A stretch of DNA of 60,242 bases from a virus, in the IMG/VR virus record IMGVR_UViG_3300025127_000033, positions 1 through 60,242 of that record. One strand, given 5' to 3'. This document shows, piece by piece, positions 9,346 to 60,176 of the stretch. The position numbers and the translations under genes were made by a program. Every line of letters begins with the position of its first letter. Position 1 is the stretch's first letter. The notes below the pieces were generated by a model. That model was given only the letters and a program-made list of their open reading frames with translations, was not told the DNA's origin and ran no database searches.

Positions 9346-10791
9346 ATGGCTGGTTCATTACAGGCGGGGTCTGTTGCATTAACCCCACACGGTAGTAAAG
9401 TTGCTTTGGCATCTAACTACATCAACGATTTCAAATTCTTAGATCAGTATCTACCTGATACTTATGAGAAAGAATTTGAGAGATATGGAAACAGAAGCGT
9501 TGCTTCTTTTATGAGAATGGTAGGTGCTGAGATGCCAACTAACTCTGACCTTATCAAATGGGCGGAGCAGGGTCGTCTCCACGTTAAATTTGAAGGTGCT
9601 ACTGCTAACAACTTTGTTAGTGCTGGTACAACTAGTGCAAGATTTGACATTGTTGTAGCTGGTTCTCCTTCATCTGTTCCGGTAAGAGTTGGACAAACTC
9701 TTGTTGTTGCTGATGAGGCTGCTGGCTCTAGCAAAACTGATAAAGTTATTGTAACTGGTGTATCTGGTGCTACGATTACTGTTGCTGCTTATGCTGCTAC
9801 TCCTTCAATCACTACCGGTTCTACAGTAACTGCATTCATCTATGGTTCTGAGTTTGGAAAAGGAAGCACAGGAATGGATGGCTCTATTGAAGCTGAAGAT
9901 AACATCTTCGAAAACAAGCCAATCATTCTAAAAGACAGATATGCTGTCAACGGTTCTGACATGGCTCAAATCGGATGGGTAGAGGTTACAACTGAGAATG
10001 GTGCTACAGGTTACCTATGGTATCTAAAATCAGAGCACGAAACAAGACTTCGCTTCGAAGATTACTTGGAGACTGCTATGGTTGAGGCTGTTCCTATGGA
10101 AACTGGTTCTGGTGCTACAACAGCTGTAACTCCTAATACTACTGCATACTCTTCATTACCTGCTGGATCTTCATTAGCACAAACAGGTGGTTCTGAAGGA
10201 TTATTCCACGCAGTAGAGAATAGAGGAAACGTTTGGAGCGGTGGTAACCCAACTACCCTTTCTGACTTTGACTCTATCATTCAGGTTCTTGACAAGCAAG
10301 GTGCTATCGAAGAAAACGTATTGTTCTTAAACAGACAATTTTCTTTCGACATCGATGATATGCTTGCTGCTCAGAACTCTTATGGTGTAGGTGGTACTTC
10401 TTACGGTCTTTTCGACAACGACGAAGAGATGGCATTGAACCTCGGATTCACAGGATTCCGCAGAGGATATGACTTCTACAAGTCTGACTGGAAATACCTC
10501 AACGATGCCACTATGAGAGGAGGCGTAAAAGCTGGAAACATCAACGGTATTCTTGTACCTGCTGGTTCTACAACTGTTTACGACCAAATTCTTGGCAAAA
10601 ACGCTCAGCGTCCGTTCTTACACGTAAGATATCGTGCGTCTGAGTCTGAGGACAGAAGATATAAAACTTGGATGACTGGTTCTGCTGGTGATGTAAGAAC
10701 TTCTGATCTTGATGCAATGGAGGTTCACTTCTTATCAGAGCGTGCGCTTTGTGTTATGGGAGCGAACAACTTCGTTATCTTTAAGAACTAA
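9346..10791 (+). CDS. major capsid protein
   Basis: 481 residues, abundant in Ala, Gly, Thr and Ser, with well-adapted codons. It is followed by a strong intrinsic terminator and preceded by the scaffold-like gene. An inserted beta-rich region (about residues 95-170, TLVVADEAAGS to TVTAFIYGSE) resembles the surface insertion domains of HK97-fold capsids. The C-terminal region (ERALCVMGANNFVIFKN) fits a final beta strand. The call rests on gene order, composition and terminator context. Confidence 0.82.
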   Translation: MAGSLQAGSVALTPHGSKVALASNYINDFKFLDQYLPDTYEKEFERYGNRSVASFMRMVGAEMPTNSDLIKWAEQGRLHVKFEGATANNFVSAGTTSARFDIVVAGSPSSVPVRVGQTLVVADEAAGSSKTDKVIVTGVSGATITVAAYAATPSITTGSTVTAFIYGSEFGKGSTGMDGSIEAEDNIFENKPIILKDRYAVNGSDMAQIGWVEVTTENGATGYLWYLKSEHETRLRFEDYLETAMVEAVPMETGSGATTAVTPNTTAYSSLPAGSSLAQTGGSEGLFHAVENRGNVWSGGNPTTLSDFDSIIQVLDKQGAIEENVLFLNRQFSFDIDDMLAAQNSYGVGGTSYGLFDNDEEMALNLGFTGFRRGYDFYKSDWKYLNDATMRGGVKAGNINGILVPAGSTTVYDQILGKNAQRPFLHVRYRASESEDRRYKTWMTGSAGDVRTSDLDAMEVHFLSERALCVMGANNFVIFKN

Positions 10792-47448: not shown

Positions 47449-47949
47449 CTAGTTCTTACCAATAATTCCGATTTCATCAATCGTATTCCAATCGCACACT
47501 CTCAGTGCGCCTGCATCGTTACCCTCATCGTCTCGCTGTGGCATAATACACATTCCGTTACTCAATACGAGCACGACTGGCGAACCACTCCAATCACGAG
47601 GCATGTCATTTGGGTTGAGCCAAATTACCCTCTGAATCATCTTACCCACTAAGGACTGTGCAAGGTTGTCTGTTTTCTTCTGCTCCCTTCGCTCCTTGAT
47701 GATTGCTCTATGAACCTTTGGGTCTTCGAGGTATGTCTCCGCTAAGTCCCCAGCCGCATACTTGTTCTTCGCCACCTTTTCTATCAACCCCTCGCTAATC
47801 CACTTGGCAAGTTGTTGGTCATAGAAAGGTTCACTTTTGTATATCTTTTCCCTAGCCCACCACACGAACCCATAGAAGTCTCTGCGTGTGAAAAATTTGC
47901 CGTGTGATACGGCTTGTTCGATAATTTCGTATTTGTATGTATTTTTCAT
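47449..47949 (-). CDS. unknown protein, possible winged-helix
   Basis: 166 residues from ATG 47949, whose start overlaps the upstream membrane-protein stop. The N-terminal ~70 residues (YEIIEQAVSHGKFFTRRDFY, then YDQQLAKWISEGLIEKVAKN) have a winged-helix-like pattern; the C-terminal part is strand-rich and repeats VVLVLSNGMCIMPQRDDEG. Could regulate transcription, but no family is certain. Confidence 0.55.
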   Translation of the reverse strand: MKNTYKYEIIEQAVSHGKFFTRRDFYGFVWWAREKIYKSEPFYDQQLAKWISEGLIEKVAKNKYAAGDLAETYLEDPKVHRAIIKERREQKKTDNLAQSLVGKMIQRVIWLNPNDMPRDWSGSPVVLVLSNGMCIMPQRDDEGNDAGALRVCDWNTIDEIGIIGKN

Positions 47950-48143
47950 TGTTCTCCTTTTAAGATTAATAAACTGACAACACGGAAGTATTGCCCTGCC
48001 ATAAGAATGAGGAATCCATTGAAGGCTAAAGTCTTCAACTCCTCCATATTTTCGCAAAAGTCAATATTGCCCAACACCATAAGACAGGCGCAGACAATAC
48101 AGACATAGTTCAGCGAATTAAAAAAACGTGCTATATTATACAT
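47946..48143 (-). CDS. small two-pass membrane protein
   Basis: 65 residues with two hydrophobic stretches (YVCIVCACLMVLG about 12-25 and LAFNGFLILMAGQYF about 38-53). Its TGA overlaps the ATG of the 47449 gene. It lies directly 3' of the first tRNA-like minihelix. Role unknown. Confidence 0.6.
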   Translation of the reverse strand: MYNIARFFNSLNYVCIVCACLMVLGNIDFCENMEELKTLAFNGFLILMAGQYFRVVSLLILKGEQ

Positions 48144-48178
48144 AGATTATGATTTATAACGCACACCATTGTACGTTG

Positions 48179-48222
48179 AACCACGCAGAGGAATCGAACC
48201 TCTATTTATTCCAAACGTGGTT
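48179..48222 (-). ncRNA. tRNA-like acceptor/T-arm minihelix 1
   Basis: On the minus strand: AACCACGT and GCGTGGTT pair as an 8-bp acceptor-like stem, joined through an 11-nt linker to a 5-bp AGAGG/CCTCT stem closing a canonical TTCGATT T-loop; total 44 nt. There is no D arm or anticodon arm. It starts 9 nt after the stop codon of the small gene 48232-48414. The second copy at 48933-48976 has the same length and shows compensatory changes. RNase P can act on such minihelices, so this may be an RNA-processing signal. Confidence 0.65.
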
Positions 48223-48231
48223 TTGGTACGC

Positions 48232-48414
48232 CTAAACGTCCCATTCGACTAGACCTAATTCGCCTAAGTCTACTTCGCCTATTTGTTCCATAAGCATGGC
48301 AATCTGGCGATCTGCTTCTTCACGGATTTCCGCCAGGCGAGTCTCCCTTGCTTCTTCAAGGATGTCTAAATGTCTGTTCAACTGAACAGAACTTGAGAAA
48401 ATAAAATTTGTCAT
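48232..48414 (-). CDS. small coiled-coil protein
   Basis: 60 residues from ATG 48414 (MTNFIFSSSVQLNRHLDIL, then EEARETRLAEIREEADRQIA). Strongly charged coiled coil. The longer frame to 48504 is not used because it runs through the terminator. It lies between a terminator upstream and minihelix 1 downstream. Confidence 0.6.
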   Translation of the reverse strand: MTNFIFSSSVQLNRHLDILEEARETRLAEIREEADRQIAMLMEQIGEVDLGELGLVEWDV

Positions 48415-48475
48415 AGTAATAAATAGTGAGTGTGAAAATGATTTCACGTTAAAAAATCCCCTAACTATAGGGCAT

Positions 48476-48499
48476 AAAAAAAGGGACATAAATGTCCCT
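48476..48499 (-). terminator. intrinsic terminator (leftward)
   Basis: Minus strand AGGGACA/TGTCCCT stem with a TTTA loop followed by seven T, about 30 nt after the stop of the 48529 gene. A second weak CCCTA/TAGGG hairpin with TTTTTT follows within 25 nt. Confidence 0.9.
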
Positions 48500-48528
48500 A
48501 TCAAAAAATCATCTGAAGTCTGGCAGTC

Positions 48529-48894
48529 TTACTTTTTCTTAGCAACTTTTTTGCTTTCGATAAACTTACCAATCGCTTGAATAAAGAAGTACATGGAGAT
48601 TGCATCTTTGCGCTTTCCGTCTTTTGAATTCTTGCGGTATTCAGACATGAATTCCATTATCTTATTTGGATTTCCTTTACCTAATATTTGCTCTACCGTT
48701 ACTGATGTACCAAATTTTTCGTTTCTATCTTTTACAATAGCACGAATGGCTTTTTTACCAAGTTCATCATGAATGAAATATTTCATGTGACCACTCGGTG
48801 AAAGGTAGGTCTTGTTAATGAAATCTCTATGCTCTTTTGTGAGAACAGAAGTTAATGAAACGGTTTTCTTTGTGTTTGTCTTAATTTTTGACAT
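48529..48894 (-). CDS. basic protein, first gene of the leftward array
   Basis: 121 residues, Lys-rich (KIKTNTKKTVSLTSVLTKEH; RKNSKDGKRKDAISMYFFIQ), helical, ending SKKVAKKK. It is the first coding sequence after the structured RNA and the tRNA-like minihelix 2, and a 14-bp palindrome lies directly upstream of its ATG. It could be an early regulator or nucleic-acid-binding protein. Confidence 0.6.
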   Translation of the reverse strand: MSKIKTNTKKTVSLTSVLTKEHRDFINKTYLSPSGHMKYFIHDELGKKAIRAIVKDRNEKFGTSVTVEQILGKGNPNKIMEFMSEYRKNSKDGKRKDAISMYFFIQAIGKFIESKKVAKKK

Positions 48895-48916
48895 GATAAA
48901 TAATTAAATAATTAAA

Positions 48917-48930
48917 GTGCAATATTGCAC
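48917..48930. promoter_or_regulatory. 14-bp perfect palindrome before the 48894 start
   Basis: GTGCAATATTGCAC is a perfect palindrome, 22 nt upstream of the ATG and just after minihelix 2 on the transcript. It could be a dimeric operator or an RNA stem sequestering sequence. Confidence 0.6.
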
Positions 48931-48932
48931 AG

Positions 48933-48976
48933 AACCGTGCTAAAGAGTCGAACTTTAGTAAAGACCGTCCACGGTT
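48933..48976 (-). ncRNA. tRNA-like acceptor/T-arm minihelix 2
   Basis: Minus strand: AACCGTG pairs with CACGGTT (7 bp), an 11-nt linker follows, then CTAAAG/CTTTAG (6 bp) closing a canonical TTCGACT T-loop; total 44 nt, the same as minihelix 1. Acceptor positions AC vs GT and T-stem AGAGG vs TAAAG change together with their partners, so the helix is probably conserved. It forms the 3' end of the structured RNA region. Confidence 0.7.
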
Positions 48977-49491
48977 TTAAGACCTAAGAAATAATTTTCT
49001 TTCGATGCGCTATTCTAAGTAACAGATAAACTTAACCCCTAACTTTCGTGTTGGGTGTTCCTTTTCGGATGTTGCCGCACATTGGCTATCTTGTGAATGA
49101 CTATTAGCGCCGCCTTCATTCGTCACAAGCGCCGTACACTTTCCCATTGATAATTTACTCCTACCTAATTGGCGAAATACTTTTCGTAAATCTTTTCCCT
49201 TTTATCTGTTGGGTTCTCCCCCAACAAACGCAACCATTCAAACCATTTGACATAGCCCTTGCGTGACTATAGACCCGAATGATATCGATAAAGTACTTCA
49301 TATTTCCCAATACCGAAATGCCCTTGCGTGACATATTGGCTTAGATTTCGTTCTCCTAACGTGTACTATTCAAGATGTTAAATAACGATATTACTTTCTC
49401 CATGAATGAGTGGTGAGTAATAACCCTTGTAGATATCAAAAGAAATAATATCAAGATTATTAGAGCACCTTGCCATTCCCACCGCCGTAAT
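48933..49491 (-). ncRNA. putative structured noncoding RNA with tRNA-like 3' end
   Basis: About 560 nt on the minus strand without any credible ORF, directly after a TATCTTTG promoter. Hairpins visible: TGTTGGG/CCCAACA at 49207-49226; a two-part stem CTTGT-GAATGA/TCATTC-ACAAG with a 3-nt bulge at 49090-49129; CCC-AAC/GTT-GGG with one bulged base at 49037-49055; AATAAT/ATTATT at 49444-49461. A 13-nt sequence GTCACGCAAGGGC occurs twice, 65 nt apart (49255-49267 and 49320-49332). The 3' end is minihelix 2. It does not match tmRNA, RNase P or group I intron cores that I know. The exact ends are guesses. Confidence 0.65.
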
Positions 49492-49497
49492 ACAATA

Positions 49498-49505
49498 CAA
49501 AGATA
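49498..49505 (-). promoter_or_regulatory. leftward TAnnTTTG promoter
   Basis: TATCTTTG on the minus strand matches the Bacteroidetes -7 box. A TTG lies 21 nt upstream at the expected -33 region. It points into the structured RNA and the long leftward gene array, and so is probably a main early promoter. Confidence 0.75.
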
Positions 49506-50046
49506 TACGAATACTTTTTACTTATGCAACTATTTTGCAAAAAAAAATTTCAAAAACTATAGGGCAGTCGGTGTAATCCTTTGGCATTCAATCAATTATG
49601 AAGTAAAAAAAATTTCAAAAAAATGCATATATATTGACTGGGGAGAGCAAAAATGTACACGTATACGCATAGAATGTGGTTATACTATGTCGCAAAATGT
49701 GCGAAGAAAAAACGTAAAACTTCGAAGTAAAATTGAATGGAATTTGTGCTGAACTTTTAGGTCATGATTTACGTAAAACTTTGGCGTAAATCTTTGGTGA
49801 AATATGAACGTAAAACGTCGAAGCGTTGCGTATACAAAATTTACAGGACATAGACAAAAAAAGATATTAACATATTAACATAGGGTAGTAATAAAAACGG
49901 CAAAAAATTGACCAAACGTTTGTTTGGTAAAAAGCAAAAACAAGGCAGGGGGTCATTTTATTAATTATAAAAAAATTACAAAACGCTATAGAACCCGAAA
50001 CCTACAGGTGTCTCGTGAATTTTATACTTTTACAAAAACAAAGACA
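49506..50046. other. AT-rich intergenic control/origin candidate region with repeats
   Basis: No gene is credible here. It contains three direct repeats ACGTAAAAC (49712-49720, 49771-49779, 49808-49816) plus a related GCGTAAATC, two long AAAAAAATTTCAAAAA stretches (about 49541 and 49606), a repeated ATATTAACATATTAACAT (about 49864) and a palindrome at 49911-49928. It lies between divergent gene blocks, so it may combine promoters, operator sites and a replication origin. Confidence 0.6.
49911..49928. promoter_or_regulatory. inverted repeat ACCAAAC-GTTT-GTTTGGT
   Basis: A 7-bp inverted repeat with 4-bp spacer that also contains the palindrome CAAACGTTTG. Arms of this kind suit a dimeric repressor or activator. 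It lies upstream of the rightward gene 50047 (the TTG-started longer frame begins within it). Confidence 0.5.
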
Positions 50047-59204: not shown

Positions 59205-59467
59205 TGAAATTTTTAGTAACAGAATCAGACAGACAGATTTGCTTAATAGCAGATAATATTATACTAGAGGATGATGGCGTGTACTATGCCTGGAATGACG
59301 CTACCCCACATAAAGTTCAGAGAGCTAACTCGACGGATACGCTAGAAATAGTTGACGTTCCTGAGGGCACTCAGCTACCTGATGATGAGTTTATTATCAG
59401 CAAATACACTTACACTGTAGATGGTCAATTCGTTGTTTACTCAGGATGGGTGGATGAAGAAGTTTAA
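59204..59467 (+). CDS. small unknown protein (complete copy)
   Basis: 87 residues, acidic with aromatic strands (MKFLVTESDRQICLIADNII). Its 3' end equals the fragment at 1-97. It overlaps the fibre-like gene by one base and the spanin-like gene by 14 nt. No known domain; it could be a fibre-associated or chaperone protein. Confidence 0.6.
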   Translation: MKFLVTESDRQICLIADNIILEDDGVYYAWNDATPHKVQRANSTDTLEIVDVPEGTQLPDDEFIISKYTYTVDGQFVVYSGWVDEEV

Positions 59468-60176
59468 TTGGAACGAAGCCATACCATATATGTTCTGCAT
59501 ATTCCTTGCGTTCATGCTACTAAACAAGTGTGAGCAGGAGAAGGAGTATCAGCAGGAGATACAGCGAATACAAAACAACAACGTTGCACTATTAGACACT
59601 ATCCGAAACTACATGGATAGCGATGGGCTATATGCTGCCGATATCAGGGCACTGAACTTAAAGCTAGATGAGCTAGGTGATAGCATAGCAGTCAATAGGT
59701 CTCAGCCACCTGTAACCATAACCAATCAGACAACAGAGATACGAGAGACTATTGAAGTCCCTGCGTTTATATACGACACGATCACAATAGTGAACACCGA
59801 CACGTTCTATAAGCAGATATATGTGGAGCGCACAGACACGTTCGGCAAGAGCAACAGGTCCATCGAGGTGACCATACCTACCGATGGTGTGGTAGTGGCG
59901 GATGCCATAATAAACCTAGAGCAGGACATATGGGTTGAGAACACGGTAGAGCAGAACAAGAAGACAGGTGAGGTGTTCTTTAGAATGAGAACTGACTATC
60001 CAGGAGTTAGGTTCAACAATGCCAACGCTATACTAGTAGACCCGAAGCAACTCGTTAAGGTACGAAAATCATTTGGCGTTGGTTTTCAGACAGGTATAGG
60101 CATCACAACAACGGGTCAAACAAGGCATTACATAGGTGTGGGAATCCACTATTCGCCTAAGTTTTTACAATGGTAA
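59454..60176 (+). CDS. membrane-anchored spanin-like protein, right copy
   Basis: 240 residues from ATG 59454 (MKKFNWNEAIPYMF). Differs from the left copy (84-806) at about 14 residues, for example KKF/KRI near the start, QNNN/NNNN, SDGL/DDGM, AVN/SVD, NKK/NNK, GVR/GVT and TTGQTR/TTGKPR, with many silent differences. Same membrane helix and beta-rich end. Confidence 0.65.
   Translation: MKKFNWNEAIPYMFCIFLAFMLLNKCEQEKEYQQEIQRIQNNNVALLDTIRNYMDSDGLYAADIRALNLKLDELGDSIAVNRSQPPVTITNQTTEIRETIEVPAFIYDTITIVNTDTFYKQIYVERTDTFGKSNRSIEVTIPTDGVVVADAIINLEQDIWVENTVEQNKKTGEVFFRMRTDYPGVRFNNANAILVDPKQLVKVRKSFGVGFQTGIGITTTGQTRHYIGVGIHYSPKFLQW

Follow-up and report, generated by a model that had tools for sequence, protein, structure and literature searches.

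The window, the whole 60,242-nt stretch of viral DNA analysed here, holds a series of small ORFs on the minus strand for which PHROG and Pfam gave no match, and two short tRNA-like minihelices, TLS1 and TLS2, lie among them (Table 1). TLS1 is built from the acceptor strand AACCGTG, the linker GACGGTCTTTA, the T-arm CTAAAG-TTCGACT-CTTTAG and the acceptor 3' strand CACGGTT, with a conserved C directly after the helix at 48932. TLS2 follows the same plan with AACCACG, TTTGGAATAAA, TAGAGG-TTCGATT-CCTCTG and CGTGGTT, its conserved C lying at 48178. The two 44-nt minus-strand minihelices that the first-pass annotation had placed at 48222-48179 and 48976-48933 were thus recovered letter for letter. 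Refined against relatives, both have a 7-bp acceptor, an 11-nt linker carrying GG at offset 3 and a 6-bp T-stem, giving 13 continuous base pairs over the entire helix. The 11-nt linker of that annotation holds once the T-stem is taken as 6 bp; its 5-bp T-stem does not, as this implies a 12-nt linker and one unpaired base. It had also passed over the linker GG, the C after the helix and the second hairpin behind TLS1 and TLS2.

Scanning the window for a TTCRANY loop on a paired stem combined with a paired acceptor yielded TLS1, TLS2 and a genuine tRNA-Arg (52309-52235), and nothing else. When the 60-kb window was shuffled 200 times with its dinucleotides preserved, and both strands were scanned, such a structure was found zero times, compared with two in the real window, which rules out a chance origin of TLS1 and TLS2. 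On minimum free energy folding, TLS2 taken by itself forms a GGAAU/AUUCC pairing in preference to the T-stem, in a calculation that leaves tertiary contacts aside.

Table 1. Features around the two minihelices, in window coordinates.
Feature	Position	Strand	Remarks
Minihelix 1 (TLS1)	48933..48976	-	44 nt; read directly and by motif scan
Second hairpin behind TLS1	48917..48930	-	GUGCAAUAUUGCAC
121-aa ORF	48529..48894	-	ATG 38 nt past TLS1; no PHROG/Pfam match
Terminator-like hairpin and T-run	48482..48499	-	between 121-aa ORF and following ORF
60-aa ORF (internal ATG)	48232..48414	-	stop codon 9 nt ahead of TLS2
Minihelix 2 (TLS2)	48179..48222	-	44 nt; read directly and by motif scan
Second hairpin behind TLS2	48158..48177	-	AACGUACA-AUGG-UGUGCGUU, 8 bp
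65-aa ORF	47946..48143	-	ATG 35 nt past TLS2

The minihelices had been described as bracketing two small genes, which is true as stated; a better description is that each lies just upstream of one gene. Upstream of TLS1, about 600 nt of the minus strand (49000-49640) contain only tiny ORFs and several stem-loops. This stretch, for which Rfam gave no match, is possibly a longer non-coding RNA. Near-identical, non-identical 251-aa ORFs are located at both ends of the record (51-806 and 59421-60176) and may be tandem paralogues or a variable terminal repeat. The window terminase shares 72% identity with that of MW202828.1 (Manatee Spring) and about 44% with those of Flavobacterium elemo phages, and because of this resemblance a host in Bacteroidota is plausible.

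Two near relatives of the window phage, L002 and L003, carry two minihelix copies each. L002 holds an identical copy of TLS2 at 10673, and at its TLS1 locus identity is 91-92% in the flanks but drops to 62% in the element, whose helix is kept. A search with the 121-aa ORF returned one contig as the sole relative, and one with a GP88-like ORF returned 79 loci, among which the minihelix is confined to near relatives. In MW202828 the minihelix is absent, and two degenerate tRNA-like sequences are found instead. These stand in tandem (520-740 of the MW202828.1 locus, L082) and are followed by a terminator-like hairpin; one has an odd, long middle, the other a D arm and no anticodon arm. The Flavobacterium phage elemoF likewise showed no minihelix over its initial 32 kb.

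Pattern scans of IMG/VR revealed the minihelix far beyond the near relatives of the window phage, in more than 40 contigs. The widest scan, in which AAC..G/C..GTT and a portion of the T-arm were the sole fixed positions, returned 44 contigs, and most viral matches are fully paired at the seven base pairs that the pattern left free. When 257 Gb of genomes from bacteria and archaea were scanned in a similar way, with a shorter linker allowed, nine matches emerged, only four of which pair; this contrast between viral and cellular sequences is valid for the AAC...GTTC class only, because the pattern is limited to that class. At least one of these four (L187) has neighbours that appear phage-like from a reading of their ORFs. 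BLAST of single minihelices against phages returned mostly tRNA T-arm matches, and the intergenic ones pointed to PSonyx, ObLaDi, Indlulamithi and D_HF2_7; S-RIP1 and Sarma624, matched by a partial T-arm, were left uncounted as carriers. Among cultured phages, the carriers infect Mycobacterium (Papyrus, MrMiyagi, Cuke and Indlulamithi), Gordonia (ObLaDi and Morgana) and Corynebacterium (PSonyx). For L222, all matches in a search with its DnaB-like protein fell below 60% identity and indicated no host. Absence from every other phage was the outcome that the first-pass annotation had set against its own reading; dozens of other phages with the motif were found.

A covariance model was seeded with ten sequences, among them TLS1 and TLS2, whose scores of 54.8 and 64.5 bits are high by construction because both belong to the seed. 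The model matches all 51 virus records tried, a few of them only weakly or partially, and finds at most seven full-length copies in a record. When 79 distinct matches were aligned, 97.7% of pair cells hold versus 64.2% on shuffling, and 328 cells are changed on both sides where 83 are expected. The covariation score of the same alignment, which is biased in its own favour by being fitted to the model, reaches 0.827 versus 0.180 when shuffled, and still falls to 0.10-0.17 when the helix is slid. Selection on structure, first proposed from two sequences, is thus strongly supported by 79, and we are virtually certain that the minihelix family is real, structured and intercistronic.

The conserved anatomy comprises an acceptor helix, a T-stem stacked on it and a TTCRANY T-loop, as expected of a tRNA. 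The D and anticodon arms are absent, as had been stated, and in most copies a short linker of 9-16 nt takes their place; a minority carries one inserted hairpin there (L003, L155, L159, MrMiyagi and Cuke). Over the family the helix measures 11 to 13 bp. In class I, to which the window copies belong, the 13-bp helix is closed by A1:U72 and followed by C; in class II, found in actinophages, a helix of 11-12 bp is usually followed by A and C. All 72 copies examined have the C after the helix, which the covariance model favours and which a free scan without a C requirement recovers too. GG occurs at linker offset 2-4 in 71 of the 72 copies and could contact the T-loop in the manner of tRNA G18 and G19. 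No copy has G, a potential pairing partner of the post-helix C, directly before the helix. A second hairpin (at least 5 bp, within 8 nt downstream) follows 52 of the 72 copies versus 14% of shuffled flanks. The 3' RCCA of bacterial RNase P substrates, which pairs with the P15 loop of the enzyme, is absent from most copies: C74 is invariant, R73 is present in class II only, C75 is rare, and so is a full CCA, which occurs in PSonyx and one Indlulamithi copy. In class I, A(-1) pairs with U73.

Several variants were observed. The PSonyx minihelix with an encoded CCA (L241, 15781-15867) directly precedes a gene for an RtcB-like RNA ligase. In an orthologous copy shared by MrMiyagi (L245, 2369-2472) and Cuke (L246, 2082-2182), TGCGAGT replaces the TTCRANY loop, with acceptor and stem kept. 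Longer tRNA-like sequences with an inserted arm occupy the minihelix position in gaps of Indlulamithi (L240, 13955-14105) and MrMiyagi (L245, 4817-5018), and are perhaps intermediates between tRNA and minihelix.

Many copies are arranged in arrays between genes. Locus L223 carries seven within 3.3 kb, one behind each of several consecutive small genes, and L224, L225, L226 and L229 carry four or five each. The richest genomes hold 8-11 copies; the model scores 10-11 matches, some of them partial, in each whole genome of Papyrus, MrMiyagi, Cuke, ObLaDi and Morgana, and about a dozen in Indlulamithi, an unfiltered listing of its gaps showing the T-loop in nearly all that bear the element. In such genomes the minihelices occupy most, in the richest nearly all, of the ~90-nt gaps within operons, just past the stop codon and on the gene strand. 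Where genes are annotated, the order is stop codon, usually about 5-15 nt, minihelix, (A)C, hairpin, a Shine-Dalgarno-like GAGGATGG or similar sequence, and start codon. At five annotated actinophage loci, 27 of 30 matches fall in gaps versus 5.1 expected (p 4e-18), and all 30 lie on the gene strand. In PSonyx (L241, 25024-28620), several gaps between small genes lack the minihelix and contain another recurrent hairpin, GAGCGCACACCACAAACCACGCTC in form, in its place.

Neither Rfam 15 nor ARAGORN detected a member of the family, which rules out an ordinary tRNA, a tmRNA or a known Rfam RNA. Against the tRNA family (RF00005), only the window tRNA-Arg and a tRNA-Gln of Indlulamithi (L240) score, the minihelices staying below the gathering score, and ARAGORN finds no tmRNA with a tag reading frame. 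Weak Rfam matches, for example to fstAT and Plastid-ycf2, far under their gathering scores, were rejected. The suggested membership of a mascRNA-type group found no support, as even a permissive cmscan of 48100-49950 gave no mascRNA match. The minihelices are not listed as intrinsic terminators on the gene strand, and an integrase attachment site is disfavoured by the pairing of the 5' acceptor strand. The phage records examined annotate no feature at the minihelices, and we found no description in open-licence PMC papers; an earlier report elsewhere is possible. Judged by sequence and predicted fold, this is a previously unlisted phage RNA family of armless tRNA look-alikes.

Given their placement and strand, we argue that the minihelices would act in cis on the transcript, and their tRNA mimicry points to a tRNA enzyme as the reader. 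We propose that the acceptor/T-arm helix, by keeping the elbow parts of tRNA (a TTCRANY loop and GG in a D-loop-like linker), would be read by a host enzyme of tRNA-precursor processing, with RNase P acting 5' of the helix and/or RNase Z 3' of it. The cut would divide the polycistronic transcript into per-gene messages, and each downstream message would then begin with a protective hairpin. RNase P is known to cut phi80 M3 RNA, P1/P7 C4 antisense RNA and T4 gene 32 mRNA, as well as some polycistronic mRNAs (PMC11143913). The bacterial enzyme pairs with the 3' RCCA, a contact that cells of E. coli and B. subtilis cannot do without (PMC11143913), and a small pseudoknot substrate was cleaved by RNase P only when given RCCA (PMC12710915). 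As RCCA is mostly missing here, RNase P would have to manage with C74, alone or together with R73; otherwise the reader would be RNase Z or some other factor. The A(-1):U73 pair of class I could shift or hinder cleavage. Of the mechanisms considered, the RNase P/RNase Z cutting points of the first-pass annotation fit best with the intercistronic, gene-strand, per-gene placement, and fit less well with the scarcity of RCCA and a helix of 11-13 bp rather than a fixed 12.

Because RCCA is mostly missing, we put cleavage of polycistronic phage mRNA at the minihelices by RNase P or RNase Z at an even chance, and keep in play, as possible but doubtful, a cis element that is bound and left uncut. A phage or host tRNA-binding protein would here tune termination, re-initiation or stability gene by gene, candidate host partners being EF-Tu, TruB, TrmA or a synthetase. 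The fixed stop-to-start geometry, with the second hairpin, the Shine-Dalgarno sequence and the start codon directly behind, suits such an element, as does the T-loop, given the known recognition by T-arm enzymes, and RCCA would not be required. The occurrence in otherwise unrelated phages speaks against a phage-specific protein partner. One could also envisage a trans-acting decoy: once released, the minihelix would occupy enzymes that act on tRNA, or defence nucleases directed against it. tRNA enzymes are known to bind helices reduced to acceptor and T-arm, and each genome may hold multiple copies; however, a decoy needs neither one copy per gene gap nor a position just past stop codons on the gene strand, and most known tRNA-cutting defence nucleases target the anticodon arm, which the minihelices lack. 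The decoy role suggested at first pass squares poorly with single copies per gene gap whose spacing from the stop and start codons is constant, and we consider it improbable.

An element acting on transcription, either a put-like antiterminator or a terminator, seems more improbable still. HK022 put RNA consists of two stem-loops in a row, and the hairpin behind TLS1 was weakly flagged as terminator-like, but most copies have no T-run behind the minihelix, and the conserved T-loop, linker GG and C would be out of place in a terminator. That the copies lack a function, being tRNA genes in decay, scars of recombination or mobile palindromes, is very hard to credit. Some do retain extra arms or near-CCA ends, and MW202828 carries degenerate tRNA-like copies; yet placement and strand are fixed, and the copies differ throughout their stems while staying paired, where decay would break pairs that covariation keeps.

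Returning to cleavage or reading by host tRNA machinery, the broader proposal is that arrays of armless tRNA mimics, one behind each operon gene, serve tailed phages with no other relationship as a general punctuation code that has gone unnoticed in well-studied mycobacteriophages; we regard this as evenly balanced between right and wrong. If true, it would represent a new phage strategy in which tRNA mimicry serves to split long transcripts and tune them, would account for many of the regular gaps of ~90 nt that carry no annotation in published phage genomes, and would supply a short RNA module open to immediate testing in laboratory phages such as Papyrus. The minihelix may further offer a minimal natural elbow, a T-loop and GG without a D stem, for studies of RNase P, RNase Z and T-arm enzymes. 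Whatever the mechanism, a covarying family in cultured phages that Rfam and tRNA finders overlook aids annotation.

Compared with known systems, the minihelices are reminiscent of several tRNA-like RNAs. The MALAT1 mascRNA and the NEAT1 tRNA-like element, which are cut by RNase P and RNase Z, likewise keep the acceptor and T-arm and have a reduced anticodon arm. However, they are eukaryotic, lie at the 3' end of long non-coding RNAs and have a small D arm. The tRNA-like domain of tmRNA shares a stemless D-loop whose GG meets the T-loop, whereas its CCA, long body and tag frame have no counterpart in the minihelices. M3, C4 and T4 gene 32 are also phage transcripts recognised by a tRNA-processing enzyme, but they are single cases with demonstrated cleavage, whereas the minihelices form a repeated intercistronic family with putative cleavage. 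In the early region of phage T7, RNase III sites likewise place structured RNA between consecutive genes, where the minihelices too could divide a long transcript, although the T7 sites are long bulged duplexes without a T-loop. In mitochondrial tRNA punctuation, too, tRNA-shaped elements separate successive genes and lie on the same strand as these. There, however, the punctuation marks are functional tRNAs, whereas the minihelices dispense with the D and anticodon arms and their processing is putative.
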